Below, in pieces: positions 1,657-36,769 of a stretch of 64,000 nt of DNA. Location: assembly GCF_040784935.1 (NCBI RefSeq), contig NZ_CP160680.1:1789501-1853500 (forward strand), read 5' to 3'. The DNA is from Lewinella sp. LCG006. GTDB taxonomy: Bacteria; Bacteroidota; Bacteroidia; Chitinophagales; Saprospiraceae. Both the position numbers and the translations under genes were made by a program. The notes below the pieces were generated by a model. The model did not search any database. It was not told the DNA's origin and was given only the letters and a program-made list of their open reading frames with translations. How positions within the stretch are numbered: position 1 is the first letter of the stretch; the number at the start of each line of letters is the position of its first letter.

Positions 1657-1691
1657 GTATGGACATACCTACTTCAGACCTACTTTCTAGT

Positions 1692-3911
1692 ATGAGACAC
1701 TTTTTGTTATCAGCCCTCTTCGTATTTACTTATGCACTAGCTGCACAAAATACTAATTGCTTACCACCTACACCCATTTCGGTCTCTGGTAAGGATATGC
1801 AAGTCGCCCAAATTAAGGACTTACTCCAAGCCAATGGCAATAACGCACTATTTGATGAGCAAAAAATAGAAAAAGCAATTCGCAATGTCGAAACCTGTAA
1901 TCAGGAACGAGCCGGACGCTTGCTTGGTATAGAGAATGAAATCTCCATCCTGACTCATAACTACCAGGAAGTACTGTCCATTCGTGACGTTCAGGGAACG
2001 AAACAACAGATTGAAGACCTTGAAAAAAGTAAAATGGAGACCTTGGCTTCCTTGGAAGAACGTATGCAAAGGTTTCAACGAAAGGGCTTGTATATTGTTT
2101 TTCTACCTGTTACTAGCGTACTAACAGATGTGAAAGAGTTTCAGAATCAAGCTAAACAATCTCTTACTCAACGTGCTATAGAGGAAATAAACGGTACCAG
2201 TATAAGACGAATCAGTGAAGTAATAAATCAACAAGACGTGAGTGACATTATTTCCAGCATTACAGCAGGAGAAGTAACGCTAGACCGGATAATATATGAT
2301 GTCCCTGATTTCAGAAAAGGCCAAGAGTATTACATCTATTTTGCATCGGTTAATGTGACTCCATTGAGCAAAACTACATTTAATGGAATCAGTTTACAAT
2401 CAGAAGCTAGAGCCAGTGTCTTCAACCCAATCGTTGACCATAATTACAACGTTGATCTTCAGAGCCTTGGTGTTGATCCCGTCCACATTACAACCATTCA
2501 GCAATTACTAGGTAATTGGAATGAGAACATTGTGAACCATAACAAGAACATAGATAGTAGTCAACTCCAAATAGCAAGCTCCGGCGAACAACAGGTTCGC
2601 GAAATTGATACGCAAATCAATAATCTACGTGAACAACTAAACCAGCGGAGTAGCCGAATCAATCAATACTGCACTGAAATGGGTATCCGTTTCGATGACA
2701 ACAATCTAAACGGTAGCGCCCAGCGTGTTCTAAATGCGATTCAACAACAGCTACAAAGTAGCCAAAACAACTGGCGTATCACAAAAGACGAAGAGATACT
2801 CTTCAGGAAATCCTCTATTACTATTTCAGGTAATCCACTAGATATCTTAGCGGAAGAAAGTATTAAACTTACCGAACGGCTACGAGCAGATTATACTAAA
2901 GTCACCAAAAATGAGGAAATACTGGATTTGGAAGATTATTCCGTAGCGAACTACCAAAATACCCGCCAGATAGAATTCTACAGGGAGTTAAATAGAGTCT
3001 CTGTGATGTGTGCGGGGCAAGCTAATGGTTCTTTCAATGTGGTCGTGTTTGCCACATTTAAAATAAAGGACGAGGCTACAGAAAGGAATAGGTCGAATAA
3101 CTACTCTTTAAACTCGACTTCCTCTAATTACAAAACGCTGGTAAGTGATAACTTCATACACATCTCTGGTGGCACCTTCCAAATGGGCGACCAATACAAC
3201 GAAGGTGACGACGGCGAAAAGCCTGTACATACCGTAAAAGTGAGTAACTTTTACCTAAGTTCTACAGAGGTGACCTTCGCTGAATATGATGCCTTCTGTA
3301 CCGCTACCAAGCGTAACAAACCTGACGATGAAGGCTGGGGACGGAGCCAGCGCCCCGCCATCAATGTAAGTTGGTGCGACGCGGTAGATTACGCCAACTG
3401 GCTAAGCGAACAGAACAACCTGCAAAAAGTATACAGCGGCAACTGCGACAACATCCGCGCCAACTGGGAGGCCAACGGCTACCGCCTGCCTACCGAGGCG
3501 GAGTGGGAATACGCAGCTCGGCAGGGTGGCCAAGAAGTGCGCTTGGGCAACGGAAAAGATACCGCCGAGTCGGCGGAGATTAATTTTGATGCTTCCCCAG
3601 GCTATAAAATCAGCTATTACCGCGTAGGAACTTATCGCAGACAAACTCTTCCAGTAGGCAGTCTCAATAGCCCAAACAGCCTAGGATTACACGATATGAG
3701 CGGAAATGTATGGGAATGGTGCTGGGATTGGCTTGGCGATTACCCTAGCTCGCCGCAACAAAATCCACGTGGGCCTGGATCGGGCTCTTACCGTACGAAT
3801 CGCGGCGGCAGTTGGCTCATGAATCCGATGTATTGCCGCTCCGCTTTTCGGGGCTGGTTCACGCCGACTTATCGTGACGGCAATGTTGGCTTCCGCTTGG
3901 CCCGCAGTTAG
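1692..3911 (+). CDS. Exported coiled-coil protein with C-terminal FGE-sulfatase (lectin-fold) domain, paralogue 1; possible old DGR target
   Basis: The ATG at 1692 gives a clean signal peptide (MRHFLLSALFVFTYALAAQ); an upstream in-frame ATG at 1659 sits at the foot of the terminator hairpin and is less likely. The 739-residue protein has a helical, coiled-coil-rich exported region (about 30-480) and an FGE-sulfatase/SUMF1 domain (about 485-739) with 'GGTFQMGD', 'YRLPTEAEWEYAARQGG', 'SGNVWEWCWDW', 'RGGSW' and the terminal 'GFRLARS'. The catalytic cysteines of true formylglycine-generating enzymes are not evident; the fold more likely serves as a ligand-binding scaffold. Its last 33 residues have the layout of a DGR variable region, with changes concentrated at the positions usually encoded by AAC/AAT in templates, but its DNA does not match the template at 6996-7095. 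An 82-bp block (3430-3511) is identical to paralogue 2. Confidence 0.75.
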   Translation: MRHFLLSALFVFTYALAAQNTNCLPPTPISVSGKDMQVAQIKDLLQANGNNALFDEQKIEKAIRNVETCNQERAGRLLGIENEISILTHNYQEVLSIRDVQGTKQQIEDLEKSKMETLASLEERMQRFQRKGLYIVFLPVTSVLTDVKEFQNQAKQSLTQRAIEEINGTSIRRISEVINQQDVSDIISSITAGEVTLDRIIYDVPDFRKGQEYYIYFASVNVTPLSKTTFNGISLQSEARASVFNPIVDHNYNVDLQSLGVDPVHITTIQQLLGNWNENIVNHNKNIDSSQLQIASSGEQQVREIDTQINNLREQLNQRSSRINQYCTEMGIRFDDNNLNGSAQRVLNAIQQQLQSSQNNWRITKDEEILFRKSSITISGNPLDILAEESIKLTERLRADYTKVTKNEEILDLEDYSVANYQNTRQIEFYRELNRVSVMCAGQANGSFNVVVFATFKIKDEATERNRSNNYSLNSTSSNYKTLVSDNFIHISGGTFQMGDQYNEGDDGEKPVHTVKVSNFYLSSTEVTFAEYDAFCTATKRNKPDDEGWGRSQRPAINVSWCDAVDYANWLSEQNNLQKVYSGNCDNIRANWEANGYRLPTEAEWEYAARQGGQEVRLGNGKDTAESAEINFDASPGYKISYYRVGTYRRQTLPVGSLNSPNSLGLHDMSGNVWEWCWDWLGDYPSSPQQNPRGPGSGSYRTNRGGSWLMNPMYCRSAFRGWFTPTYRDGNVGFRLARS

Positions 3912-4108: not shown

Positions 4109-6286
4109 ATGAAGCATCTTTTCTCCCTCCTCCTCTTTTTATGCAGTGCAGCACTCGGTGCCCAAACCTGCGCCCCGTCTACGCCTATCACCCTTGCTCG
4201 GGCACCCTTTGGGGCACGGCAGATTACCGACATCATTGACCAGAACCGGGCGATCTTTGAACCGTCGGATATAGCTGAAGCCGAGCGCCTCATCCAACGT
4301 TGCCGACTGGAGATGGATGTGGCCCTGACGGACATCGACAACAAGACCAAGCAACTGACCCAGTTGTACCAGGAGGTGCTTACGGTAAGGGATGTAAAGG
4401 GTATGCAACAGCAAATTACAGAGCTGGAAGCCAGTAAGCAAGAAGCCCTTCAGGCCCTGCAAAGCCAACTGAAAAACCAGGGGCAGAGCGGTCTCTTTGT
4501 CGTATATCTGCGAGGGATAGACCCCTTCGGCAATGCGAACGAGTGGCGCCAGGCCGCTCAGCGCGCGCTGGAACTACGGGCCATTGAAGACCTGAACGGC
4601 ACCGTGATCGAACGCCTCACCCGCGTGACCGATCAGCAGCAGGTTCGAGATGTTATCAATGCGCTGACGAAAGGCAAGGTGGAGGCCGAATCAGTACTGC
4701 TAGATGAGGTCAATACCGCCAAGGGCGACTACCTCTATATGGCAAAGGTGAGGGTAACGCCATTGGCACCCGATGAAAATGCCGGTTTGGAGGCCGCAAG
4801 TGGCAATGAACAAGCCTTGGTGATTAACCCTCTACTGGAAACGGAGTTTTCCCGTACCCTGCTGCGCCAAGGGGTAGATGCTGCTGAAATCACCGCCATT
4901 GAAGACCAGGTACTCCTCTGGCAGCGTACCATCGCCGACGCCAACACCAATGCCGATGATAGTCGCCAGCGCTTCATCAGTGCCAGTGAGCGAAACATCC
5001 GCAACCTGGATGCTCAGATTACGGATCTCCGCAGCCAGTATGCCAACCGCAGTCAGAAAATACAGCAATATTGCAACCAATTGAGCCTTTCTTTTGACCG
5101 CAATAACCTTACTCGCAGCGCGGATGATATCTTGCGCCACATCAAAACCCAACTCGCAGAGCTGGAAAAAAACTGGCGCACCACTAAAAGCCGGGAAATT
5201 TTCGTGAAAGATGCTTTTGTTTCTACAGATGGCGATGTAAAAGCCGCCCTGGCCAAAAAAGCAGAGGAACTTACCGAAAACCTGCGCCAATCTCACAGTA
5301 CCACGACCAAACGTATTGAAGCCATTGAAATTGAAGACCTCTCCCTTACGGGCTATAGCAGCACTCGTGAAGTAGAATTGCTGCGTGAATTGCGCCAAAT
5401 ATGGATGATGCCCGTGGGGCGTAGTGGCGGCTTTGAGTTGTACGTTTTTGCCAGCTTTGAGGTAACCGGAGACCAGGTAAGCGGCGGCACCTATGGTGGA
5501 ACCGCCCCCGACAACTTCATCCGCATCCCCGGCGGTACCTTCCAGATGGGCGACCAATACAACGAAGGCGACGACGACGAGAAGCCCGTTCACACCGTAG
5601 AGGTGAGCACTTTCTACCTCAGCCCCACCGAAGTGACCTTTGCCGAATATGATGCCTTCTGCACCGCCACCGGCCGTGACAAACCCAGCGATAGTGGCTG
5701 GGGGCGCGACCAACGCCCCGCCATCAATGTAAGCTGGTGCGACGCGGTGGAGTACGCCAACTGGCTAAGTACAAAAAATGGCCTGCAAACAATATACAGC
5801 GGCAACTGCGACAACATCCGCGCCAACTGGGAGGCCAACGGCTACCGCCTGCCTACCGAGGCGGAGTGGGAATATGCAGCCCGGCAGGGCGGCCAAAAAG
5901 TACGCTTTGGCAACGGCAAGGATATCGCCGATCCGGCGGAGATTAATTTTGATGGCGATCCAGATGAAAAAGAGTCTTATTCACGCTCGGGTGTGTATCG
6001 AGAAAAAAGCGTTCAAGTAGGCAGTCTCAACAGCCCTAACAGTCTCGGATTGCACGACATGAGCGGCAATGTATGGGAATGGTGCTGGGATTGGTTCGCT
6101 AGTGATTATTACAAAAATTCGCCGCGCAACAATCCTCAGGGACCTACTTCGGGCTCCAACCGGGTGCTTCGCGGCGGGTCATGGAACTTCAGCCCGGCCT
6201 ACGTACGTTGCACTAGTCGCGGCGACAATAGCCCCGGCTTTAGGCTCAGCCTTATAGGTTTCCGTCTTGCGAGGGCGGGGCGTTAG
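4109..6286 (+). CDS. Exported FGE-sulfatase (lectin-fold) protein, paralogue 2; DGR target gene
   Basis: The 725-residue protein begins with a signal peptide (MKHLFSLLLFLCSAALGAQ), followed by a helical/coiled-coil region (about 25-450) clearly related to paralogue 1 and by an FGE-sulfatase domain (about 467-725) with 'GGTFQMGD', 'AINVSWCDAVEYANWL', 'YRLPTEAEWEYAARQGG', 'SGNVWEWCWDW' and 'RGGSWNF'. FGE/C-type-lectin folds are the standard display scaffold of DGR targets. The last 34 residues (689-722) are encoded by a variable repeat (6173-6272) that pairs with the template repeat at 6996-7095, with mismatches almost only at template adenines. Surface-exposed or secreted localisation is inferred from the signal peptide. 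The gene is followed by a hairpin and a strong terminator. It is the diversified member of this cassette; the ligand is unknown. Confidence 0.85.
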   Translation: MKHLFSLLLFLCSAALGAQTCAPSTPITLARAPFGARQITDIIDQNRAIFEPSDIAEAERLIQRCRLEMDVALTDIDNKTKQLTQLYQEVLTVRDVKGMQQQITELEASKQEALQALQSQLKNQGQSGLFVVYLRGIDPFGNANEWRQAAQRALELRAIEDLNGTVIERLTRVTDQQQVRDVINALTKGKVEAESVLLDEVNTAKGDYLYMAKVRVTPLAPDENAGLEAASGNEQALVINPLLETEFSRTLLRQGVDAAEITAIEDQVLLWQRTIADANTNADDSRQRFISASERNIRNLDAQITDLRSQYANRSQKIQQYCNQLSLSFDRNNLTRSADDILRHIKTQLAELEKNWRTTKSREIFVKDAFVSTDGDVKAALAKKAEELTENLRQSHSTTTKRIEAIEIEDLSLTGYSSTREVELLRELRQIWMMPVGRSGGFELYVFASFEVTGDQVSGGTYGGTAPDNFIRIPGGTFQMGDQYNEGDDDEKPVHTVEVSTFYLSPTEVTFAEYDAFCTATGRDKPSDSGWGRDQRPAINVSWCDAVEYANWLSTKNGLQTIYSGNCDNIRANWEANGYRLPTEAEWEYAARQGGQKVRFGNGKDIADPAEINFDGDPDEKESYSRSGVYREKSVQVGSLNSPNSLGLHDMSGNVWEWCWDWFASDYYKNSPRNNPQGPTSGSNRVLRGGSWNFSPAYVRCTSRGDNSPGFRLSLIGFRLARAGR
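6173..6272 (+). repeat. DGR variable repeat (VR)
   Basis: This 100-bp stretch at the 3' end of the second FGE gene aligns without gaps to 6996-7095. There are 16 mismatches; 15 are at positions where the template has A (replaced by T, G or C), and one is a template T read as C (CTG to CCG). Ten of twelve template Asn codons (AAC/AAT) are changed. The 3' 19 bp, ending TTTCCGTCTTGCGA, are identical and could be the initiation-of-homing segment. Confidence 0.9.
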
Positions 6287-6330
6287 TTTTTAACCTTTTT
6301 ACCTTATTACCTTTTGCAGGTTTGGGAGGT

Positions 6331-6359
6331 AGGCGGAAACGAGCTTTGCTCGTCCGTCT
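6331..6359 (+). other. Hairpin/cruciform downstream of the VR
   Basis: Arms 6331-6336/6354-6359 and 6339-6344/6348-6353 give a 12-bp stem with an AA bulge and a TTT loop, about 60 bp after the VR. DGR target genes are known to carry a short GC-rich hairpin or cruciform a few tens of bases after the VR that aids retrohoming. Assignment to that role is inferred. Confidence 0.5.
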
Positions 6360-6363
6360 GAAG

Positions 6364-6403
6364 ATGGGTCAGCAGTGCATCAGCAATGCTGACCCATTTT
6401 TTT
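6364..6403 (+). terminator. Rho-independent terminator of the FGE gene
   Basis: ATGGGTCAGCA (6364-6374) pairs perfectly with TGCTGACCCAT (6387-6397) and is followed by six T residues (6398-6403). Confidence 0.85.
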
Positions 6404-6458
6404 GAAAAAAAATATATATACCGAAGGTAAGATTGATATATCCTCAGGGATATAGCCA

Positions 6459-6506
6459 TATATATAGCGCGAAGCGCAAGCGGTTTTTTTTCAATCGCTA
6501 TATATA
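6459..6506. repeat. Inverted repeat in the HRDC leader
   Basis: TATATATAGCG (6459-6469) and CGCTATATATA (6496-6506) are perfect 11-bp inverted copies separated by a GC-rich segment and an 8-T run. The pair sits directly upstream of the HRDC gene start. It may be an operator or a leader structure; the function is unknown. Confidence 0.45.
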
Positions 6507-6525
6507 GGTTAATGCAATCGTATAT

Positions 6526-7080
6526 ATGCAAATCAAGATCATGACCCTGCCCTTTGATGGGAAGACCGAAGGCTTTGATGATGAGCTGGTAGCAGACTTT
6601 TGCCAGAACAAGCAGGTACATCGCATAGAGAGTCACTTTTTCCGGCAGGAAGGGCAGGCGTATTGGTCGGTGGCGATTCATTACGATACCGTCCTACCCA
6701 GGAAGACCGAAAAGGTGCGCGATCTGGACGATGCCCAGCAAATCCTGTTTCAGCGGCTGCGGGAATGGCGCAAAGAACAGGGGGCGAAGGCAGGCATTCC
6801 GGTCTATTTGATTGCCACCAATGCGCAGTTGACCGCTATTATCAAGCAGCCGGTTAAAACGTTGGAAGGCTTCAAGCTAGTCAAAGGATACGGCAAGCAG
6901 CGTATCGAGAAATACGGGCGCACGATTATCAACCTGATCAAAGCTTTTTACGAAGAGCAGGAAAAGCAAGCTCCCGCTCCGCCCATAAATAACGTGGCGG
7001 GTCATGGAACAACAACCTGGCCAACGTACGTTGCACTAATCGCAACAACAATAGCCCCGGCAATAGGAACAACAATATAG
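6526..7080 (+). CDS. HRDC-domain DGR accessory protein
   Basis: The 184-residue protein has an N-terminal alpha/beta part (about 1-70, with 'YWSVAIHY') and an HRDC helical bundle (about 75-155) containing '[15 protein letters not shown]', '[13 protein letters not shown]' and '[14 protein letters not shown]', the signature hairpin region of HRDC domains (helicase and RNase D C-terminal). HRDC proteins are known as the alternative to Avd as accessory factors of many Bacteroidota DGRs, encoded between target gene and template; they are thought to bind nucleic acid during mutagenic retrohoming. The last 28 codons overlap the template repeat in another frame, so the C-terminal tail is probably a by-product. 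In the usual order a reverse transcriptase would follow, but none is present here. Confidence 0.8.
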
Positions 7081-7095
7081 GTTTCCGTCTTGCGA
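6996..7095 (+). repeat. DGR template repeat (TR)
   Basis: This 100-bp sequence, read in the FGE frame, encodes RGGSW-like scaffold residues with twelve Asn codons, many in runs (AAC AAC AAT). Such adenine-rich codons are the substrate for adenine-directed mutagenesis by DGR reverse transcriptases. It matches the VR at 6173-6272 at 84 of 100 positions, with 15 of 16 differences at its adenines. It overlaps the 3' end of the HRDC gene and continues into a non-coding stretch. Confidence 0.9.
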
Positions 7096-7198
7096 ATACA
7101 GAACTTTGTGCAGCAGACAATCCACTACGGTTGGTTGTCCCGTCACTCCCCCTGTCCCGTCGGTGGTGCGGCACGCTTTGAGTAGCGTCAAATAATTC

Positions 7199-7247
7199 AA
7201 AGAAGTGGTGTCGGTAATCATGGTACTGGTGAAGGCACTACTTCTTT
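7199..7247 (+). other. Hairpin 3' of the template repeat, possible part of the DGR RNA
   Basis: Arms 7199-7212 and 7234-7247 can form a 14-bp stem with two G-T wobbles and a 21-nt loop, about 100 bp after the TR. In characterised DGRs the RNA downstream of TR is structured and needed for cDNA priming; that role here is an inference. Confidence 0.4.
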
Positions 7248-7250
7248 TCC

Positions 7251-7331
7251 CTGCCACCCCATCTGCCACCTCTGTCGCTCAAATCCACTTTCCCTGCCAC
7301 CCCTGCCACTCAGAAGGGGTTTCCCTGCCAC
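7251..7331 (+). repeat. Five CTGCCAC direct repeats (iteron-like)
   Basis: CTGCCAC occurs at 7251-7257, 7263-7269, 7294-7300, 7303-7309 and 7325-7331, mostly as CCCTGCCACC. The cluster lies directly upstream of the HTH/BT4734/DUF3987 module and could bind the HTH protein or serve a replication or transfer function. Confidence 0.5.
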
Positions 7332-7406
7332 CGCTATTGTAAAATAACGTTGGTCATCGCTACTTGCAGCCGTTATCCATTTAATAATGCGCTAAAATAG
7401 TGAACT

Positions 7407-7763
7407 ATGATTGACATTAGCCAATTGCCTGAGTGGGCCAAAATTGAGATTAAGAAAGAAGATTTACTGGCCTTTGCCGAGAAGCTGCGGGAAGAAGGAA
7501 TCCCAGGACAAACGCCCCCCTCTAAGACCGAGGAAGACGTCTTTTTTGATTTTCTGGAGATGTGCGACTTCCTGGGGATCGCCCAATCTACGGGGTACCA
7601 ACGGGTAAGTCGGGGAGAGATTCCACATTTCAAGAAAGGACGACGCTTGTACTTCCGCAAGTCGGAACTGCTGGCCTGGGTGGAATCGGGCCGCCGGAAA
7701 ACGACGGAAGATCTCAACGAGATTGCCGAGCAGTACCTGCGGGCTACGAAAACGGGCTTTTAA
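7407..7763 (+). CDS. Helix-turn-helix (excisionase/MerR-type) DNA-binding protein
   Basis: The 118-residue protein carries a C-terminal winged HTH of the excisionase family (about 50-95): 'FLEMCDFLGIAQSTGYQRVS' followed by 'IPHFKKGRRLYFRKSELLAWVESG'. Such proteins are common in Bacteroidota integrative elements, where they act as excision or transfer regulators. The N-terminal 45 residues are charged and helical, with no recognised domain. It is followed after one base by the BT4734-type gene, so the two are probably co-transcribed. The CTGCCAC repeats upstream are a possible binding site. Confidence 0.75.
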   Translation: MIDISQLPEWAKIEIKKEDLLAFAEKLREEGIPGQTPPSKTEEDVFFDFLEMCDFLGIAQSTGYQRVSRGEIPHFKKGRRLYFRKSELLAWVESGRRKTTEDLNEIAEQYLRATKTGF

Positions 7764-7764
7764 G

Positions 7765-8682
7765 ATGCCGTCGCTAGATCAGCTCCGTGATATGGAGCGA
7801 AACATCGTGATGAAACGACGGATCAATACAGCCTGGGAAGATTTTACGGTGGCCGAGGTATTGGCCAACCGTATCTTCCCCAGGGAAATGCAATTGCACC
7901 CGGAAGATAAGGCCAATTTCCCTGCAATGGGCTTCAACCGCCAGCTGGGCAGTTTGAGTAACCAACAGCTTTTTCCTACTTGCTTTGTCATACTGGAACT
8001 CGATACGCCCGAGAAATGGAAAAAGCGGATCAAGGCTGGCGATCAGAAAACCCTGGCCTGTGCCAAGGCGCAAGCGTTCTATTTTTTCTGGCAGTTTCAC
8101 CAACGCGCGGAGCTCCCTTATTACTGGATGTACCTCACGCCGTCGGCTTGCGGAATCCGCTTTGTGCTACGTACCGACCAGCCCGTCATCAACGAGGAGC
8201 ATTACCGACAAGTGGTGCTTGATTACCTGCGGTATTTATACCGAATTACCAATGGCAAGATCAACCCTGACCATCACGATATTCGGGTGCACCAGGCCTG
8301 GTTTGTACCGGTCTTCCAGAAGGAGTTTAGCGCGAAGGAGCAGGATTGGAAAATCTTGCCTTACCAGGAACCGTCTACGCCCTTGCCACCAAGGGAGGGT
8401 GCCATCATTCGCACCCTTCCGAAAACGGAACAGGAGCGCCTGGACTTGGCGGTAAAGTTTACCGAAAGGAACTTCTCCTTTGTGGAAGGTCAGCGCAACG
8501 ATTACCTCCACCACCTAGCTTGCAATTGCAACCGCTTTGGCCTGCTGGAAAGCGAAATAGCCCAGTGGATGGTGGGCGAGTACGAATTACCAGAAAAAGA
8601 AATCCGCGCTACCGTAGCCAGTGCTTACCGTAATAACCGAGCAGAGCATGGTCAGTTTTTAACTAAGGGGTCCTCACTTTGA
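7765..8682 (+). CDS. BT4734/BF3469-family mobile-element protein
   Basis: The ATG at 7765, one base after the preceding stop codon, gives a 305-residue protein. The region about 90-200 ('AFYFFWQFHQRAELPYYWMY', 'TPSACGIRFVLRTDQP', 'DHHDIRVHQAWFVPVF') matches the pattern of the BT4734/BF3469 family, related to the N-terminal VirE region and found next to DUF3987 genes in Bacteroidota integrative elements. In those loci the pair resembles a split primase/helicase, so a role in element replication is likely but unproven. The C-terminal part (about 225-295) is helical, with primase-C-like 'NDYLHHLACNCNRFGL'. Confidence 0.7.
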   Translation: MPSLDQLRDMERNIVMKRRINTAWEDFTVAEVLANRIFPREMQLHPEDKANFPAMGFNRQLGSLSNQQLFPTCFVILELDTPEKWKKRIKAGDQKTLACAKAQAFYFFWQFHQRAELPYYWMYLTPSACGIRFVLRTDQPVINEEHYRQVVLDYLRYLYRITNGKINPDHHDIRVHQAWFVPVFQKEFSAKEQDWKILPYQEPSTPLPPREGAIIRTLPKTEQERLDLAVKFTERNFSFVEGQRNDYLHHLACNCNRFGLLESEIAQWMVGEYELPEKEIRATVASAYRNNRAEHGQFLTKGSSL

Positions 8683-8689
8683 CTTTTTT

Positions 8690-8859
8690 TAGCCACGGAG
8701 GCACAGGGACACGGAGGTTTTTTATTGCGGGTTATCAAGTAGAAACATTTTGACTATTTCTAGTTGGATCTATAGTGATGAAAAGTCTCATAAAAAGGAA
8801 TGATGTCATCTCTGTTTAGCGACCAAAAAAAACTCTGCGCCTCTGCGTCTCTGCGCGAG
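8690..8859. repeat. Dispersed CACGGAGG / CTCTGCG-type repeat, copy 1
   Basis: The segment starts with AGCCACGGAGGCACAGGG then ACACGGAGG (8690-8716) and ends with CTCTGCGCCTCTGCGTCTCTG (8832-8852 region). A related, rearranged copy lies at 34094-34227 in the opposite orientation. Similar phrases recur as intergenic repeats in many bacterial genomes; here they bracket a gap between two mobile-element genes. Confidence 0.6.
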
Positions 8860-8888
8860 ATATACAATCGAGGATAATCAAATACGAT

Positions 8889-10274
8889 ATGCAATATTAT
8901 TTTTCTCCCTTTCCGGTGGATGTTTTCCCGGAGAGCCTGGCGAAGTATGTCCGCAATGTAGCTACCGCCATGGTTTGTCCGGCCGATTTGGTGGGGGCAC
9001 TTCTGCTGGGGACGCTTTCCAGCGCGATCGGTACTTCTCGGGTCGTACAAATAAAAGAGGGGTGGACGGAACCGCCCGTCTTTTACGGAGCTATTGTGGC
9101 ACCACCTTCCTCCAAGAAGTCGCCGGTGTTCAAGGAAGTGCTGAGGCCTGTGAAGAAAAAGCAATTAGCACTTTACCAGGAATATGAGCTAGCACGGACC
9201 CAGTACGAACAAGAGCTGGAGGTTTGGGAAGAAACGGAGCCTAAACAGCGCGGGCCCAAACCCGAGAAGCCTCTCCCGGTGCGGAATTTCTTTTCTGATT
9301 TCACCTTTGAGGCCCTGGCCAAGCTGCTGGAACAAAACCCGAAAGGACTCTTGCTGGGCCTCGATGAAATAGCCGCGTGGGTCAACTCCATGGACCAGTA
9401 CCGCAAAAGTAAAGGTGCGGATCGTGACCACTGGCTTTCCCTGTGGAGCTGTAGTATGATTACGGTGGATCGTTCATCAAGAGAGGAACCCATCGTCATT
9501 CCCCGCCCTTTTGTGAGTGTGATTGGAGGTGTTCAACCCGACCGACTGAAGATTTTCAAAGGCAAAGATCACGACGGGTTTATCGACCGTATCCTCTTTG
9601 CTTACCCCGAAGAGATGGATAATGAGTGGACGGATGAAGTGGTCGCGAAAATCTTGCGCCAGCAGTACCAAGACCTTTACGATCAACTCTACGCATTAGC
9701 GCCAGAACTTACGCCGGAGGGTACATCCCAACCCATTGCCCTGGGTTTCTCCCCCAGCGCCCGCACCGACTTTATCAAAGTGGTCACGATCAATAATGAC
9801 GATATCAATCGGGAGGGAGATCCTTTCTTGAAATCGGCTTTTAGTAAAATGGAGGCTTATTTCTTTCGCTTCACCCTGCTCTTGCAGCTGTGCCATGACC
9901 CCAACAGTCATCAAATAGAGGAGGAGGCCGTACAGGGTGCCATGCTTTTGCTACAGTACTTCAAGGACCAGGCCCGGAAAGTTTACGCTACGATTGAAGG
10001 TAGTGAAGTGAATTCCAAAAACCATCGTGCTCTGGAAGCCCTCAATACCCACGGTGAGCCAATGACCTTACGCGATTGCTACACCAAAAAAGTGGCGGGT
10101 GTAAAAACAGCCGGAGCAGCACGTAAGCTATTCGATGATCTTGAAAAAGAGGGTTACGGAAAAATACGACAACAACAAAACAGCTCGGGTGGCAAACCGA
10201 CGATCACTTTCCACTTGCGGCAGTGCGATTGTGAGAGCTGCAATCAGCAATCACTGCTCAGAAGGGTTAAGTAG
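8889..10274 (+). CDS. DUF3987-family protein (primase/helicase-like ATPase)
   Basis: The 461-residue protein follows the DUF3987 pattern: N-terminal 'YVRNVATAMVCPADLVGALL', a P-loop-like 'GAIVAPPSSKKSPVF' (about 67-81, with a degenerate Walker A), a charged spacer, 'LLLGLDEIAAWVNSMDQY' as Walker B/acidic region (about 154-171) and 'PFVSVIGGVQPDRL' (about 207-220). Members are typical of mobile elements and phages and are thought to be replicative ATPases working with primase-like partners. It follows the BT4734-type gene after a repeat-containing gap. The C-terminal end contains a Cys/His cluster ('CDCESCNQQ'). Confidence 0.75.
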   Translation: MQYYFSPFPVDVFPESLAKYVRNVATAMVCPADLVGALLLGTLSSAIGTSRVVQIKEGWTEPPVFYGAIVAPPSSKKSPVFKEVLRPVKKKQLALYQEYELARTQYEQELEVWEETEPKQRGPKPEKPLPVRNFFSDFTFEALAKLLEQNPKGLLLGLDEIAAWVNSMDQYRKSKGADRDHWLSLWSCSMITVDRSSREEPIVIPRPFVSVIGGVQPDRLKIFKGKDHDGFIDRILFAYPEEMDNEWTDEVVAKILRQQYQDLYDQLYALAPELTPEGTSQPIALGFSPSARTDFIKVVTINNDDINREGDPFLKSAFSKMEAYFFRFTLLLQLCHDPNSHQIEEEAVQGAMLLLQYFKDQARKVYATIEGSEVNSKNHRALEALNTHGEPMTLRDCYTKKVAGVKTAGAARKLFDDLEKEGYGKIRQQQNSSGGKPTITFHLRQCDCESCNQQSLLRRVK

Positions 10275-30860: not shown

Positions 30861-31321
30861 GCGATAAAGATTTAAAAATTGATGTTTCACAGTTAATCCT
30901 AGAACAGGTTCAACTTGAGCAAGCTTCTGTTTATCATCCAGAAGCTTTTGATGACTCACAGATTGCTTCTTTTGTTCAAGATGTCACCCATGAACTTGCC
31001 CTCAACGAGCAGGATAAACGCTATCGTGTGCGCTTATCTTTTTCGATCAAGACAGCAATGAAAGATAATTCAGAACCTGCTGAGGGCAGGTTTACTTTGC
31101 AATTTTTTTTTCTGGTAAAAGACCTTGACCGTTGGTTAACCGCTACAGAAGACAAAGGTGTTGCAGTTGAGAGCATACTAGCCAGTACCTTGGCTGGAAT
31201 TTCTTATTCTACAGCTAGAGGCATCTTACTTACCCGTTTTCAAGGCACAGCTTTTCAGAATATTATCTTACCAATTATTAGCCCTATGCAGATGGTGTTT
31301 TCTGCCGTTGAACATAGGTGA
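30857..31321 (+). CDS. SecB-like chaperone of the toxin-antitoxin-chaperone module
   Basis: The 154-residue protein starts at a GTG that overlaps the antitoxin stop. Its C-terminal part 'GISYSTARGILLTRFQGTAF' followed by 'LPIISPMQMVF' resembles the end of SecB ('YARE.I......G.FP.L.L.PVNF..LF'), and the strand-rich middle ('KRYRVRLSFSIKTA', 'GRFTLQFFFLVKDL') fits the SecB fold. SecB-like proteins of toxin-antitoxin-chaperone systems, best known from Mycobacterium tuberculosis, protect the antitoxin. The assignment rests on this pattern and on the gene order toxin, antitoxin, chaperone. Confidence 0.6.
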   Translation: MSDKDLKIDVSQLILEQVQLEQASVYHPEAFDDSQIASFVQDVTHELALNEQDKRYRVRLSFSIKTAMKDNSEPAEGRFTLQFFFLVKDLDRWLTATEDKGVAVESILASTLAGISYSTARGILLTRFQGTAFQNIILPIISPMQMVFSAVEHR

Positions 31322-31379
31322 TAGAAAACAAAAACACTTCTGTTTTCTATGAAAATCTCCATTGCCGGTAGCGTAATTA

Positions 31380-32570
31380 CTAGCCCAAATATGCCTCCAA
31401 CTTAAACTCACGCCCCAGCCCTACTGGCTTTCTGTTACGAATATTATTTTGAATAGTTTTTAAGTCCAAATCTTTAAAATTAGTAAATCGGCGCTTCAGG
31501 AACAAGGCAAAATGCTCTTTATAGTCCGCCTCAGCATCACTCTTAGGGTGTTTTTGGTATAAATGGTAGAACATATAATACACTAGCCCCTTCGACAACT
31601 TAGTAGAAACCTGTAAGGTAAACATGTTCGATACAGCTTGCTCTTCCGGCGGATAAGCAAAACCATGCGCTAATAATTGCTCCGTTTCCTCACGTGAAAG
31701 TAGGGTAGGTCCATTGGTAACTCCATTCGTTTCTAAGTAAAGAAAGGAGAAAAACTGCCCAATGTCTTTTTCTTTTAAAAGCCCAGGAATACTTACCCAT
31801 CCTTTTGGCACCCGCGATTCAGGCAGGTAATTAGGCTTGTTTTCTTTAGAAGATTGATTGGTAAGCCATTCTTCACAAACGTCTTTTTGTTTTCGCGAGA
31901 TGGTCTCGTGTTGGGGATCATCCGCTAGAATAAAACGCACGAATTTCAGGTAATCTTTTCTATAGTACCGCTGGTGGTAATTAAGAAAATCATCAATCCT
32001 TTCCAGCGAGGTTTGACGAAGAGTAAGGGCAAAATAAAAACCATACTCAGGATCATCCTGGTCTTCGCCACGGTATATCTGAGCAAATACCCTTCGGTAC
32101 TTAGCACTAAAAGGCTGGAACACAAATCCAGGTCCGTACTGGTCTAAGAAACCAAGTAGCTTGACTTTTGTCTGCTTAGTCAAATAAGTAATAAAAGTAG
32201 GGTGTTTCTCTTGAGAATCCCTGGAGAAAAGTTCCAAAAGCACTAAGTAGAATCGATTTATTCGAAAAGGATGACGGGAGATATGCTCAAATACATCTGG
32301 CAAACTATTCAGGTGGCTATATAGCATTTGAAAAGTATCAATATTATACATCGAACGGGGAAATTCTTCCCACAACATGTATCTTTTTCGGATCTCCTCA
32401 AAGAGTACTTTGCCTTCCGGCAAACGGAGCAAAGCAATATTAGAAGACAACCGTTGCCTTACTTTAGAAATGTCATCGCCTAAACTAAACAATGAAGTTA
32501 TCAGGGAAGGTAATTGATCCACTGGTCGTAGTTTTTGTTCACCTGCTGTATCGAACAAAGATAAAAACAA
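31380..32570 (-). CDS. Protein of unknown function
   Basis: I do not recognise a family for this 396-residue soluble protein. It is rich in helices and aromatic residues, with a repetitive basic/aromatic character ('LNYHQRYYRKDYLKFVRFIL', 'KLSKGLVYYMFYHLYQKHPK') and no P-loop, no reverse-transcriptase YxDD motif and no transmembrane segment. It converges with the toxin-antitoxin-chaperone operon and lies next to the integrase, so it may be part of the element's accessory cargo. The 212 bp upstream to the integrase gene hold a TGTAATT/AATTACA inverted pair and no other gene. Confidence 0.5.
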   Translation of the reverse strand: MFLSLFDTAGEQKLRPVDQLPSLITSLFSLGDDISKVRQRLSSNIALLRLPEGKVLFEEIRKRYMLWEEFPRSMYNIDTFQMLYSHLNSLPDVFEHISRHPFRINRFYLVLLELFSRDSQEKHPTFITYLTKQTKVKLLGFLDQYGPGFVFQPFSAKYRRVFAQIYRGEDQDDPEYGFYFALTLRQTSLERIDDFLNYHQRYYRKDYLKFVRFILADDPQHETISRKQKDVCEEWLTNQSSKENKPNYLPESRVPKGWVSIPGLLKEKDIGQFFSFLYLETNGVTNGPTLLSREETEQLLAHGFAYPPEEQAVSNMFTLQVSTKLSKGLVYYMFYHLYQKHPKSDAEADYKEHFALFLKRRFTNFKDLDLKTIQNNIRNRKPVGLGREFKLEAYLG

Positions 32571-32782
32571 ATAATTTTAAATTAAACTAATTTGTTTCAT
32601 TCAAATACTGGTCAACTTCACCCATCAAAACCCTTCCTCAATGCAACCCACTACAAACCAAACAATTACACTTAAAAATAAAATCACCCTGTATTGTAAT
32701 TAATTAATCATCAGTCAATTACATTTTTTCTCAAAAACTATCTTCTTTACGCTCTTGGTGACAAATCACTAGTAAGTTATAC

Positions 32783-33907
32783 TTACAACTCCAGCTCCGG
32801 AATCCGATTCACCGCCGCCTTCTTCCGCTCATCAATTACCCGTGCGTAAATCTGGGTGGTCTTTACATCCCTTTGGCCTAAGAGATCCTTCAAGGTGTAG
32901 ATGTCTGTCCCGTTGGTAATTTGTAGCGTTGCATAAGTGTGTCGAAATGCATGAAAAGTGATGTGCCGATTGATACCCGCCTTGCTCAACCAGTTCTTAA
33001 GAAGATCCGTCGTTTTATTGCCGTAGTGTAAGCCTTGAAACACTAAAGTATCCTTCTCTTGCACCTCTCCCAGAAGCGACCGTGCCTGCTCCGAAATAAA
33101 CATCATCTCAAAACGACCCGATTTTTTGATCTGCTTTCTTAAGAAATGACCTTCTTTTTCCGAGTACCTTACTTCCTTCCACTTCAGGCTAAGGACATCA
33201 CCAAAGCGCAGGCCTGTCAAGGCCGAAAAGATGGCCGCTTTCTTTAGAACCGGATCTTCACAATCGGCCTTCACCGCCGCTTGTAATTCTTCGTAAGTAA
33301 GGAATTCCCGTTCCGGCTGCCGGTAAGGGATACTTTTGACGTACAGCGCCACATTCTTCTTAAGAAGTTTTTCCTTGTGCGCTTCTCTTACCGCTTCTTT
33401 AAACACGTCAAAATAACCCGCTGCCGAGTTTTGATGTAGCGGTCTCTTAGTGTTTAAACACTCCGCTTCTAAGAAATACTTCCGGAAGCGTTCGCAAAAC
33501 AGCTCATCCAGATTACTAAGTAACAGCGAACCTTCGGTAAAGCGATAAAGGTGCAGGTAAGTACTTCGCCACGACTGGTAATTGACCCTACTTACCGCTC
33601 GTTCTTCCACTTTCAGTTTCAGCCAGTCTAAGAAGTTTTCCCGCCCGCTGTACTTAGAAAGAAAGTCGTACTCCCCAGCCTGGATATCCAATTGTCGCTT
33701 CGCACGAATGGCCTCTGCAATCTTCTTGGTTTCCTTGTTGTGGGTGCGTTCCGTTTCTTTAGAAGCCGGCTTGTACAAATACAGTTTTAAAAACTCTCGT
33801 CGCGTCAACTTACCAGTATCAGGATGTGGAATAGGTGGGTAAAAGTCCAGGTAAATCCGTTCACGGTTACCTTTTAAGGTTTTCGTTCTAAGTGTTACTT
33901 TGCTCAT
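32783..33907 (-). CDS. Tyrosine recombinase (integrase) of the element
   Basis: The 374-residue protein has the Bacteroidota-type N-terminal arm-binding and SAM-like core-binding regions (about 1-190) and a catalytic domain with 'TGLRFGDVLSLKW' (Arg234), a Lys in the beta-hairpin (about 262), 'HAFRHTYATL' (His319, Arg322) and the nucleophile in 'TQIYARV' (Tyr354). The usual His/Trp before the Tyr is Arg346 ('LGQRDVKTT'). It sits near the mnmE end with the excisionase-like gene upstream, as expected for an integrase that recombines at the mnmE attachment site. Confidence 0.92.
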   Translation of the reverse strand: MSKVTLRTKTLKGNRERIYLDFYPPIPHPDTGKLTRREFLKLYLYKPASKETERTHNKETKKIAEAIRAKRQLDIQAGEYDFLSKYSGRENFLDWLKLKVEERAVSRVNYQSWRSTYLHLYRFTEGSLLLSNLDELFCERFRKYFLEAECLNTKRPLHQNSAAGYFDVFKEAVREAHKEKLLKKNVALYVKSIPYRQPEREFLTYEELQAAVKADCEDPVLKKAAIFSALTGLRFGDVLSLKWKEVRYSEKEGHFLRKQIKKSGRFEMMFISEQARSLLGEVQEKDTLVFQGLHYGNKTTDLLKNWLSKAGINRHITFHAFRHTYATLQITNGTDIYTLKDLLGQRDVKTTQIYARVIDERKKAAVNRIPELEL

Positions 33908-33944
33908 GTATTAAACGTTGTTTTTTTCTTAGAAAACTTACCAA

Positions 33945-34001
33945 TTACCTGCTGTTTTAAATGAATTACCTGTTGTTTAACAGGTATACTTACTGTTTTA
34001 A
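33945..34001 (-). repeat. Three phased repeats upstream of the integrase gene
   Basis: TTACCTGCTGTTTTAA (33945-33960), TTACCTGTTGTTTAA (33966-33980) and TTACTGTTTTAA (33990-34001) are spaced 21 and 24 bp, about two helical turns. They could be operator sites or arm-type integrase sites. Confidence 0.45.
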
Positions 34002-34093
34002 ACTTCTTTAGAAACCAGTGCATTACTAAGTAGCTTTTAAAAGCTGTTTGTGGTACGAAAGCTTGTTTTACTTAGTAGCGTGAACGCTTTCGT

Positions 34094-34227
34094 TTTCTAA
34101 GAAAACCTCCGTGCCCCTGCCTGCAAGGCCAGCTTGCTGGCAGGCAGGTCCGCGACTCCGTGGCAAAAAGAACAGCGTATCGGTGGTAACTAAAAAACCT
34201 CCGTGCCTCCGTGTCTCTGCGGCGAGT
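34094..34227. repeat. Dispersed CTCCGTG / CTCTGCGG-type repeat, copy 2
   Basis: The stretch holds CCTCCGTGCCCCTGCCTGC, a nested palindrome around GGCCAGCTTGCTGGC, CGACTCCGTGGC and then CCTCCGTGCCTCCGTGTCTC near 34198-34217. It is related, in opposite orientation, to the copy at 8690-8859. It looks like a compound of two intergenic repeat families. Confidence 0.6.
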
Positions 34228-34256
34228 CTTTCTATTGCTCCCGCCCTGCTCAAAAA

Positions 34257-34622
34257 TCACCCACCAAACAGCCCATTGATCTCTTCCCGCTTCAGTATCG
34301 TTCGCCGTCCAACTTTGTGAGAGGGTAAGGTTCCTTCTGCCATCAATCGGTAGAGGGTACGCTCACTTAGTCCGAGGAGCACGGCTGTCTCTTTAATACT
34401 TAAGAATGCCTTTTGGTCCAGTGCGCCAAAGTCCGCCTCTGGTAATTGCAGTTGCACCACCTTTTGCTGATGCTCATGCTTTTGCAATTTCTCGTCGCGC
34501 TTCCGTTGCTTGTAATGGCGTTGGTTGCATTTATGAGAACAATAGCGCGTCACGGTGGTCTTCGCCGTAAAGGCGTCCCCGCAATATTCGCACTGCCTGC
34601 TGACTTCGATTTTGGTAGACAT
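34257..34622 (-). CDS. Zinc-ribbon plus excisionase-type HTH protein
   Basis: The ATG at 34622 gives 121 residues; an upstream TTG would add six. The N-terminal part has two CxxC-type pairs ('CEYCGDAF' and 'YCSHKCNQRHY') typical of a small zinc-binding motif. The C-terminal half is an excisionase-family HTH ('LSIKETAVLLGLSERTLYRL', 'GTLPSHKVGRRTILKREEIN'). Its position between the integrase and the mnmE attachment site suggests an Xis-like or regulatory role in excision. Confidence 0.8.
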   Translation of the reverse strand: MSTKIEVSRQCEYCGDAFTAKTTVTRYCSHKCNQRHYKQRKRDEKLQKHEHQQKVVQLQLPEADFGALDQKAFLSIKETAVLLGLSERTLYRLMAEGTLPSHKVGRRTILKREEINGLFGG

Positions 34623-34873
34623 ATCTTTGCTTTGTGTCAAGTTCTGCGTTAAAGTGTCAACAAGTGACTATAACTGCCATAAATTCTCTTTTCTCTTAAT
34701 AGATCAAATTTATGGCGATTCCGCAGGTACAAAGATACGAAATAGGTACAAAAAAAGCGTAACTAAAAGACAAACACCTAATAGTGATAGAAATAAATAA
34801 ATCTATTAAAACAATGAAAATCAATTAATTATTACACTATTGAACACCATTGAGCAATGGTTGCTTTCTGCCA

Positions 34874-36769
34874 CTACTTCCCAATGCAGAACTTCCCAAA
34901 AATATTCCCCAACAAATCATCCGTAGAAATTTCTCCAGTAATCTCCCCAAGGTGATGTAGTGACCGCCGGATATCCATCGCTATAAAATCGGAGGTTACG
35001 CCATTGGCCATTCCTTGCAGCACATCCGCCAGGGCTTCATAGGATTTCTCCAAGGCTTCGTAGTGGCGAGCATTGCTTACAATGGTGCTATCGGCGTTCA
35101 CTTTCTCCGAAAGTACGGCTTCGTAGAGCTTGTCTTTCAGGTAAGGAACATTCATGCCCTCACGGGCGATGATGGGTACCCAGTTGTTTTGCTCCACCCC
35201 CGGCCCCTCCTCACGAGGAGGGGAGACAGCTGCGCGATTTTCGTTAGGCAAGGGTGCTTGCAGCGCTTGCCTTATATCATTCAGAACCTCTCCAATGTTA
35301 TTAATGACAGCTTCATTTTTAAAGCGTAGTACTCGGTAGCCCATTCCTTCTAAAATATCAGTCCTTTGCTGATCGCTCAATTGCACTTCCGGAAGTTGGT
35401 GATAGCCACCATCTATTTCCAAAATCAATTTCCGGTCTAGACAAACAAAATCAGGAATGAAATTACCAACAATATGCTGTCGTCTAAACTCACAATTTTC
35501 AATCTGTTCTCTACGCAATTGAATCCACAAAGCCGCCTCTGCCTCAGTAGGATTTTTCCTCATTTCACGCGCCTTTTCTTTTAAAAGCTTATAAATCCTA
35601 CCGCTCGCTGTCTCCCATTTCCCCACTACTACTCCTTCCAAGGAGGAGGAGCCAAAGGCAATCTCCTCCCTAATCTCCCCTCCTCCTGAGGAGGGGCCGG
35701 GGGAGGAGCTATAATCTTCCCACTTAGTATAAGGATTCAAATCCATTTTATTCGCTACTACCAGCACGTGCATCCCCGGCGTCACTAGCTTGGCCAGGTC
35801 GGCCCGAACTTCAGCGGGTTGGGTTTCAATCACATCAAAAACGTAGACGAGTAGGCTGCTCTGTCGTACCTTTTCCATCGTTTTTTCTACACCGATAGCT
35901 TCTATGGCATCTTCAGCTTCGCGAATACCAGCGGTGTCAATCAGTCGAAACTGGATACCTTTTATGTTGAGTACTTCTTCAATGGTGTCGCGGGTAGTAC
36001 CGGCAATTTCGCTCACGATTGCCCGCTCTTCATTCAATAGGGCATTCAGCAGGGTGCTTTTTCCTGCATTGGGGCGGCCCGCAATCACGGTATTGACGCC
36101 TTGCTTGATGACATTGCCCAACTGGAAACTTTGGATCAGCTGCCGCAGTACGCCTTGAATTTTTTCTACCAATATCCGTAGATCATCCCGATTGGCAAAT
36201 TCTACGTCTTCTTCTCCAAAATCCAGCTCCAACTCTATGAGACTCGCAAAATCGATCAGCTGTTGGCGCAAGGCACCAATCTCATTGCTAAAACCTCCTC
36301 GCATCTGCTGCATCGCCAACTCGTGGCTACCCGCCGAACTCGAAGCGATAAGATCGGCTACGGCCTCGGCCTGACTCAAATCCATCTGTCCATTGAGAAA
36401 GGCCCGCATCGTAAACTCCCCAGCTTGAGCCAGACGAGCTCCCCGACGGATAAACAATCGCATCAATTCCTGAATAATAAAGTCAGAGCCATGGCAACTC
36501 ACCTCTACTACATTTTCACCCGTATACGAACGCGGTGCTACAAAAAGGGTCACCAGTACTTCATCCAGCACCTTGTTTTCCTCATCGCGAATCGTTCCAA
36601 AATGCACCGTATGGCTCGGTTGTTCCGCCAAATTTTTGCTTTTGAATACTTCATCGACAATCGTAATCGCTGCTGGCCCCGAAAGCCGGATTACGCCAAT
36701 GGCTCCCACTCCTTGAGGGGTTGCCAGCGCGACAATTGTATCTGATAAATTATGTGCAGAATACCCCAT
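34874..36769 (-). CDS. mnmE: tRNA modification GTPase MnmE with an in-frame DUF559 insertion
   Basis: MnmE, with MnmG, modifies the wobble uridine (position 34) of several tRNAs. The 631-residue protein has the N-terminal folate-binding domain (1-120), the helical domain, and a G domain with G1 'GRPNAGKS' (231-238), G2 'GTTRDT', G3 'DTAG' and G4 'NKMD' (340-343), and the invariant terminal 'FCIGK'. Between G4 and G5 ('IIAREGMNV') there are 173 extra residues (about 354-526) encoded by a 519-bp cassette; without them the protein would have 458 residues, the normal length. The frame is open throughout, so a full-length protein can be made. Function could survive if the insert folds on the surface of the G domain; this is inference. 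The 3' end overlaps the putative attR. Confidence 0.93.
   Translation of the reverse strand: MGYSAHNLSDTIVALATPQGVGAIGVIRLSGPAAITIVDEVFKSKNLAEQPSHTVHFGTIRDEENKVLDEVLVTLFVAPRSYTGENVVEVSCHGSDFIIQELMRLFIRRGARLAQAGEFTMRAFLNGQMDLSQAEAVADLIASSSAGSHELAMQQMRGGFSNEIGALRQQLIDFASLIELELDFGEEDVEFANRDDLRILVEKIQGVLRQLIQSFQLGNVIKQGVNTVIAGRPNAGKSTLLNALLNEERAIVSEIAGTTRDTIEEVLNIKGIQFRLIDTAGIREAEDAIEAIGVEKTMEKVRQSSLLVYVFDVIETQPAEVRADLAKLVTPGMHVLVVANKMDLNPYTKWEDYSSSPGPSSGGGEIREEIAFGSSSLEGVVVGKWETASGRIYKLLKEKAREMRKNPTEAEAALWIQLRREQIENCEFRRQHIVGNFIPDFVCLDRKLILEIDGGYHQLPEVQLSDQQRTDILEGMGYRVLRFKNEAVINNIGEVLNDIRQALQAPLPNENRAAVSPPREEGPGVEQNNWVPIIAREGMNVPYLKDKLYEAVLSEKVNADSTIVSNARHYEALEKSYEALADVLQGMANGVTSDFIAMDIRRSLHHLGEITGEISTDDLLGNIFGKFCIGK
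34875..34889 (+). repeat. Putative attR core in the mnmE 3' end
   Basis: TACTTCCCAATGCAG matches 320-334 exactly and encodes, on the minus strand, the end of the FCIGK motif and the mnmE stop codon. The mnmE reading frame is intact on the integrase side, as expected for an element that restores the gene upon integration. Confidence 0.7.
35191..35709 (-). mobile_element. 519-bp DUF559 cassette with 36-bp terminal inverted repeats, inserted in mnmE
   Basis: The ends 35191-35226 and 35674-35709 are inverted copies that agree at 34 of 36 positions, and each contains an internal palindrome around CCTCCTC...GAGGAGG. The length is exactly 173 codons, so the mnmE frame stays open. The encoded segment includes a DUF559 (Vsr/PD-(D/E)xK-like) endonuclease-type domain (about residues 392-505) with 'EKAREMRKNPTEAEAALW', 'NFIPDFVC' (Asp440) and 'LILEIDG' (Glu451, Asp453). 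No obvious target-site duplication is seen. DUF559 domains are known as free-standing proteins in many Bacteroidota. Confidence 0.8.

Follow-up and report, generated by a model that had tools for sequence, protein, structure and literature searches.

The 64-kb stretch of Lewinella sp. LCG006 DNA analysed here (the window) very probably holds the remains of an HRDC/Avd-type DGR that was disabled fairly recently by one deletion of ~1.4–1.6 kb, judging from its sequence and the gene order of its relatives. Both the template repeat (TR) and the variable repeat (VR) are in place (Table 1), and searches of the window and of the genome, one contig of 7.5 Mb, turned up no DGR-type reverse transcriptase (RT). 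The locus is a decayed DGR in the sense of a footprint with its RT deleted or truncated; its once-diversified gene now appears frozen, as the search gave no suitable RT, and present-day diversification is not supported.

Table 1. Features of the DGR locus, in window positions
Feature	Position	Strand	Evidence
FGE paralogue of the target, 48% identical along its length	1659–3911	+	Sequence comparison with target
Target (variable protein) gene, 725 aa, frame open	4109–6286	+	PF03781, 4.1e-59
VR	6173–6272	+	Gapless alignment with TR, adenine-specific mismatches
TATATA-rich leader from target gene to HRDC (putative element)	6412–6530	+	Sequence comparison
HRDC accessory ORF	6526–7080	+	PF00570, 6.4e-14
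Probable deletion scar joining HRDC coding sequence to TR 5' edge (breakpoint approximate)	6975–6995	+	Gene order of relatives, no Avd/RT match
TR, with adenine-rich Asn codons	6996–7095	+	Alignment with VR, mismatch test, comparison with TRs of eight relatives
Retained 3' part of TR RNA: TR end, P2 remnant, P3 hairpin, P1 3' arm	7088–7175	+	R1 match
Two more hairpins 3' of the P1 arm	7176–7250	+	Predicted fold; comparable hairpins noticed by eye in relatives

The repeat pair and its target gene

VR and TR aligned over 100 bp without gaps and with 16 mismatches, of which 15 lie at TR adenines and the remaining one at a T (7018 T versus 6195 C), with none (0/16) at VR adenines. TR contains 32 A per 100 bases, and the hypergeometric probability of at least 15 of 16 mismatches falling at A is 2.9e-8. 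Ten of the 12 template Asn codons are altered, together with one non-A change (CTG/CCG). This pattern is a DGR footprint, and re-alignment and codon comparison bore out the initial annotation, which had described this pair and its altered codons as a mark of adenine-mutagenic retrohoming, with a direction from TR to VR; neither mismatches spread over all template bases nor ordinary paralogous gene ends, the two outcomes it had set against its own reading, were found. At position 7018 the aligned TRs of all eight relatives carry C, as does VR, and the T here is probably a derived C-to-T change that never reached VR.

The target protein has a hydrophobic, signal-like stretch at its N-terminus (by eye), and sequence profiles place an FGE-sulfatase/C-type-lectin fold at its C-terminus, with VR at the C-terminal end of this domain. 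Its relatives by sequence in the PDB are FGE and Treponema variable protein 1 (2y3c, 1.3e-28), while its N-terminal part was found in 0 of 99 other genomes. The target is probably a secreted binding protein whose VR would now be a fixed allele. Of the earlier proposal of a diversified binder, the fold and the signal-like N-terminus stand but ongoing diversification is not supported, with neither a DGR RT nor Avd found; likewise, VR is indeed at the 3' end of an FGE gene, and the site of TR had to be corrected, as it overlaps the 3' end of the HRDC ORF in another frame. Read in the frame of VR, TR matches the end of the FGE profile but contains a stop, as expected of a template copy, and there is no second FGE gene at TR.

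No second A-biased pair of at least 60 bp, direct or inverted, was detected in the window using an ungapped finder with 10-base seeds, and a genome search for further TR copies gave the known pair and no third copy. Besides the pair, TR gave 12 matches in the genome, 11 of them only 14–28 bases long; the twelfth, at the end of a different FGE gene, has 66% identity across 95 bases (E 2.3). The FGE profile matched 14 times in the genome, including the target and TR itself, leaving a dozen other FGE genes. Scans L080–L085, which took in five stretches around seven of these genes and the DNA immediately 5' of the window, gave no convincing pair; the 1659–3911 gene was covered by the window scan, and the four genes near 4.42, 6.85, 7.24 and 7.43 Mb lay outside the scans. 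The 3' end of the 1659–3911 gene differs from TR at 23 of 32 A sites and 29 of 68 other sites (Fisher P 0.006), and because it departs more often at TR adenines this gene is perhaps an older DGR target.

Loss of the reverse transcriptase and Avd

Eight HRDC/Avd loci from named records share the order VR, HRDC, Avd, DGR RT and TR, with TR just 3' of RT, whereas in the window HRDC runs directly into TR. The HRDC ORF, which has 52–60% identity to the HRDC of three relatives, has an altered tail: it lacks the (M/L)P(F/Y) C-terminus present in six of eight relatives and continues into TR in another frame. An HRDC alignment yielded no relative among viral contigs. TATATA-type clusters, as in the leader, also lie 3' of the VRs in seven of eight relatives.

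Four RT matches (PF00078, RVT_1) were detected in the genome, all of non-DGR groups. The first is a group II intron RT (393 bits against a cut-off of 300), of which the second is a shorter copy. The third has retron-like scores that stay below cut-off and adjoins a gene that looks cas1-like by eye, and the fourth is Drt2-like (358 bits, cut-off 390). The DGR motif IGxxxSQ is absent from all four, the two that are neither the full-length group II nor the Drt2-like RT being judged by eye. Using the RT of locus L052 as query retrieved just the two group II copies, and the sole match to DGR RT profile A1 was the group II RT; the DGR RT profile finds IGxxxSQ-type frames in 11 of 100 genomes. Avd gave no matches in the window or genome, including with NF033474, for which three other genomes (G004, G017 and G026) passed the cut-off in the same search. 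Using tblastn (E 0.01) no remnant of RT or Avd was found in the window, while the same search does detect an RT remnant in another locus (L056). An RT could conceivably sit on a plasmid that the assembly lacks, or in some other form of this culture.

In three further genomes of the genus no DGR RT was found either (profile search at E 1e-20 and motif reading), giving 0 of 4 genus members. Another species of the genus (G003) carries a different broken DGR, with a transposase and an RT stump; the two species hold remnants that were broken differently, that in the window probably by deletion.

The ancestral locus would have comprised target, HRDC, Avd, RT and TR, from which a single 1.4–1.6 kb deletion would have taken away the end of HRDC, all of Avd and RT, and the 5' arm of the TR-enclosing RNA stem. 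Before this event RT and Avd would have copied the TR RNA, with wrong bases entering opposite adenines and the cDNA replacing VR, the mechanism known for the Bordetella phage DGR; afterwards VR would persist as a fixed allele and TR would begin to drift. A gapless match between TR and VR can be drawn from a point ~20 nt upstream, though with low identity there, which leaves the right edge of the deletion uncertain. With 1 of 16 mismatches off A, the pair is no worse than those of loci that have an RT, so inactivity cannot be deduced from sequence decay by itself and loss of RT would have to be recent. The target and HRDC frames are also open. Over 12 pairs, 243 of 253 VR/TR mismatches lie at TR adenines, a hand-made sum that describes rather than tests, since the finder prefers A mismatches.

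The RNA around the template repeat

A covarying RNA stem encloses TR in all eight of the HRDC/Avd loci, of which seven come from Bacteroidota and the eighth from a Nitrospirae MAG. A covariance model trained on these loci with the window excluded (R1) matched just past TR with 35.4 bits (E 1.4e-6; E 3.8e-5 for the genome), compared with 66–91 bits in the training loci, a contrast that in part follows from training on those same loci; two untrained copies in genome G004, fairer yardsticks although they share a genome with a training locus, scored 79 and 74 bits. The single-sequence fold of 7090–7200 shows P3 but not P2, at an energy no better than shuffles (z -0.33). The 5' arm was undetectable in the window, where a 10/12 pairing exists but is matched by 250 of 2000 shuffles.

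No Rfam family was assigned at gathering thresholds to four loci examined (L119, L051, L052 and L053). Five loci that have an RT with HRDC directly before it (L054, L055 and L057–L059) were not matched by R1, which so covers the HRDC/Avd branch only. Weak matches in three genomes (G001, G019 and G041) had no convincing TR/VR pair, and a fourth weak match was seen in G064. G004 has three RNA matches versus one DGR RT: one extra match is an RNA tail that lacks a TR and precedes an FGE gene, the VR of which fits the C40 TR (17 of 19 mismatches at A), and the other is half a TR with its tail. RT-less satellite cassettes in G004 were considered and dropped, both extra matches looking like duplicated or decayed pieces. 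R1 can detect TR RNAs of this branch, remnants included, where no protein gene is at hand.

Alternative readings and known systems

It is improbable that VR-HRDC-TR is the natural order and that Avd and RT once lay downstream of TR, to be displaced by a mobile island. Island-like genes (HTH_17, primase-like, DUF3987, type I restriction) do start at 7407, ~310 bp past TR, with a tyrosine integrase at 32783–33907, and TR precedes RT in the Treponema and BPP-1 DGRs, according to PMC4891356 and PMC12875486. However, TR follows RT in 8/8 HRDC/Avd loci, retention of the TR RNA 3' part and hairpins after TR leaves little room for a junction there, and no direct or inverted exact repeat of at least 11 bp links 6951–7420 and 31301–34880.

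Slightly less probable still is a DGR active in trans, with TR copied by an RT encoded elsewhere, on an unassembled plasmid, in a phage or among the four other RTs. The clean pair and the partly kept TR RNA would suit this, as would the RT-less loci and probable trans diversification described for Thiohalocapsa PB-PSB1 in PMC10907252, but the single contig yielded no DGR RT or Avd, its other RTs are of different groups, the upstream RNA arm is undetectable and TR holds a base absent from VR. The dozen other FGE genes and the 66% match at one of their ends might suggest a repeat that arose by chance or simply two paralogous gene ends, but TR lies outside any FGE gene, and the excess of mismatches at adenines together with the R1 match rules this reading out.

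Under the preferred reading of a deletion, the locus is a natural experiment in which TR drift and selection on a frozen VR become measurable after RT loss. We consider it a long shot that loss of RT and Avd is a regular, selected step in which, a good binder having been made, target and accessory gene are kept and the variant is locked in. In a bolder variant of this idea, the HRDC-TR unit might still work through some other RT. An adenine signature without a check for RT can overstate present activity, and a one-contig genome lets RT absence be tested.

The HRDC/Avd-type DGRs of Saprospiraceae and their kin, including Phaeodactylibacter xiamenensis (L119), Thermoflexibacter ruber (L121), Bacteroidota/Saprospiraceae MAGs and a Nitrospirae MAG (L122), resemble the window in having the VR gene before HRDC, an Asn-rich TR and RNA after TR, but retain Avd and RT as well as the 5' arm of the RNA, none of which was found here. 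The Treponema denticola DGR (target TvpA) also has an HRDC accessory, and our target is related by sequence to 2y3c. Isolates of that species without RT and TR retain former target genes, as stated in PMC4891356. Those remnants lack TR, whereas the window keeps both TR and VR. The cyanobacterial all3226 remnant, of Nostoc/Anabaena PCC 7120, belongs to another phylum. PMC7517822 reports for it TR-VR homology with no RT gene or pseudogene nearby, similar to the window. In Thiohalocapsa PB-PSB1, DGR 4 and 5 have no RT of their own, MITE-like repeats stand in place of RT, and some loci are best explained by trans activity, again according to PMC10907252. RT-less DGR remnants are already known elsewhere.

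An adenine-biased repeat pair with one copy at the end of an FGE gene

The footprint of a diversity-generating retroelement (DGR) at 6173-7095 is real. Using realignment we reproduced the ungapped 100-bp pair described in the initial annotation, with 16 mismatches, of which 15 fall at adenines of the downstream copy and one at a T (position 7018), a bias with P = 2.9e-8 for at least 15 of 16 given 32 adenines per 100 bases, and codon comparison confirmed that ten of twelve template Asn codons are altered and two retained. Since the mismatches sit at adenines of the downstream copy, with no further A-biased pair of at least 60 bp in the window (ungapped finder) and no third copy found in the genome, we assign this copy as template repeat (TR) and the upstream one as variable repeat (VR). 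The next-best long match to the TR in the genome (66% over 95 bases, E 2.3) is in another formylglycine-generating-enzyme/sulfatase (FGE) gene.

The FGE domain of the target matches formylglycine-generating enzymes by sequence, and likewise Treponema denticola variable protein 1 (2y3c, 1.3e-28). The next ORF encodes an HRDC protein, a DGR accessory known from PMC4891356 and PMC10053308; its 3' end is overlapped by the TR and it is missing the (M/L)P(F/Y) tail present in six of eight relatives. A paralogous FGE gene in the window may carry an older VR at its 3' end. TATATA-containing motif clusters, perhaps a homing or regulatory element, also lie ~85-350 bp after VRs in seven of eight relatives (L051, L052, L053, L118, L119, L120 and L121, not L122) and 3' of extra VRs in L051 and L053. 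Island-like genes start ~310 bp past the TR, and the ends of this stretch were looked for but not found. Further along, a MnmE/TrmE GTPase has an in-frame DUF559 domain between its MMR_HSR1 part and C-terminal end.

Features of the window, the genome and related loci
Feature	Location	Description
VR	window 6173-6272	upstream copy
TR	window 6996-7095	downstream copy
Target protein		725 aa, VR at its end; hydrophobic signal-like N-terminus (by eye); FGE-sulfatase domain PF03781, 4.1e-59
HRDC ORF	window 6526-7080	HRDC match 6.4e-14
TATATA clusters	window 6412-6530	
Paralogous FGE gene	window 1659-3911	
Island-like stretch	window 7407-33907	HTH_17, primase-like, DUF3987, weak ATPase_2 match, type I restriction genes, tyrosine integrase
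MnmE/TrmE GTPase	window 34874-36769 (-)	DUF559 (restriction-endonuclease-like), aa 396-504
L001		group II intron RT, score above cut-off
L002	genome 5435796	RT; profile scores retron-like but below cut-off; adjoins gene read by eye as cas1-like
L003		shorter copy of group II intron RT L001 (by eye)
L004		Drt2-like RT, score just under cut-off
Second broken DGR	G003 (L056) 7825-9748	VR, HRDC, REP-associated transposase, RT stump, TR
RT stump	L056 9293-9544	matches last quarter of DGR RT
Orphan TR RNA tail copies (G004)	L133 775-861; L134 10343-10431	

Search for a reverse transcriptase and Avd

The genome (G000; 7.5 Mb in one contig, completeness 99.78%) has four RVT_1 matches (L001-L004), and a relative's DGR reverse transcriptase (RT) used as query matched only both group II copies. 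A profile of eight DGR RTs, run on 100 genomes including G000 at E 1e-20, matched 28 places, with an IGNxxSQ motif in 14, a QG-type motif in 13 and the motif not covered in one; the IGNxxSQ places fall in 11 genomes (G004, G017, G023, G026, G029, G036, G049, G051, G054, G071 and G099), that in G051 being split into two pieces. By this search a DGR RT is seen in no member of the genus among G000-G003: G001 and G002 had no match, and G000 and G003 each had a QG-type match. Likewise, a genome search for Avd gave no match in G000, while NF033474 (Avd) had no match in G000 or G003, nothing above cut-off in G001 or G002, and clear matches in G004, G017 and G026. Within the window, tblastn with eight RTs and three Avds found no remnant of either at E 0.01. 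The window DGR is most likely a remnant and its target gene is most likely now fixed; the proposal that the FGE gene is a DGR-diversified binder is thus supported for the footprint but not for present diversification, as no DGR RT or Avd was found in G000.

Gene order and template RNA in relatives

An HRDC profile search of genome contigs gave nine loci. In eight (L115-L122, with L115-L117 being the contigs also labelled L051-L053) a VR precedes HRDC, followed by Avd, RT and TR. The remaining locus, L123, matches HRDC in part and has no RT. Across 12 pairs in these eight relatives, 243 of 253 VR/TR mismatches are at TR adenines, a descriptive count as the finder is geared to pairs of this kind. 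The window has HRDC abutting the TR directly, for which a single deletion would be the simplest account; measured by hand on coordinates of L051, L052 and L053 it would span 1.4-1.6 kb, with edges not exactly placed because the TR match to the VR can be drawn ~20 nt further at low identity.

In the eight relatives the bases immediately 5' of the TR form a 12-bp stem, P1, with a segment that lies 53-62 bases past the TR, and P2 and hairpin P3 lie in between. RNAalifold on alignment A4 gave 45 pairs, of which 26 (P1-P3) were used for counts: 92.3% of 208 cells pair and 17 of the 26 pairs have both-sided changes. No shuffle of 500 reached any of five measures, and sliding the partner 1-3 columns lowered pairing to 33-50%, with the cautions that the rows are related and that both controls favour the fold because it was derived from these rows. 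No Rfam family for the TR RNA was found in four loci searched. R1, a covariance model of the 3' part of this RNA built without the window sequence, did not match five RT-bearing loci with HRDC directly before the RT, which places the fold in the HRDC/Avd branch.

R1 matched the window with 35.4 bits (E 1.4e-6 over 286 kb), the sole match in G000 at E <=1 (E 3.8e-5; 150 of 631 candidates scored), and missed it with stricter filters; training loci scored 66-91 bits, partly by construction, and two untrained G004 copies 79 and 74 bits. P3 has the same shape in the window as in relatives, while the four possible P2 pairs left (by eye) are absent from the fold of 7090-7200, whose overall energy does not beat that of shuffled sequences (z -0.33). 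The P1 5' arm was not detectable above shuffles in either register: the 10 of 12 pairs in the expected register were matched by 250/2000 shuffles versus 0-14/2000 in relatives, and the free register by 14/200 versus 0-4/200. A Nature 2025 paper reportedly found both TR flanks to be required in the Bordetella phage DGR RNA. In the same DGR, according to PMC12875486, the RNA 3' of the TR folds up and brings in RT and Avd, while a motif 5' of the TR ends reverse transcription.

At position 7018 the TR carries T, whereas the VR and, in each of the eight relatives, the aligned TR carry C, so the TR probably changed after the last writing of the VR. The rest of the pair is clean and the target and HRDC frames are both open, suggesting either a recent loss or genes that are still in use.

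Other DGR fragments and known remnants

In the second broken DGR, in same-genus genome G003, a transposase (NF047646, 58 bits versus a cut-off of 80) replaces most of the RT. Its VR/TR mismatches are at A in 10/10 and 7/10 cases in two pieces, with more differences between the pieces. Its HRDC protein is only 30% identical to that of the window, so judged by sequence the two losses were probably independent. G004 has one RNA tail without a TR and one half TR with a tail; one of these orphan tails adjoins a remote target gene, and the VR of that gene agrees with the TR on another contig, 17/19 mismatches being at A. DGR parts seem to be often gained and lost in Saprospiraceae.

This kind of locus is already known, since RT-less remnants are described in a cyanobacterium (PMC7517822) and Treponema (PMC4891356), and RT-less DGR loci in Thiohalocapsa (PMC10907252). 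To these the window adds an absence of RT and Avd tested in a one-contig genome, a likely lesion of the DGR in the form of a deletion, and a covarying RNA arm that this lesion seemingly removed.
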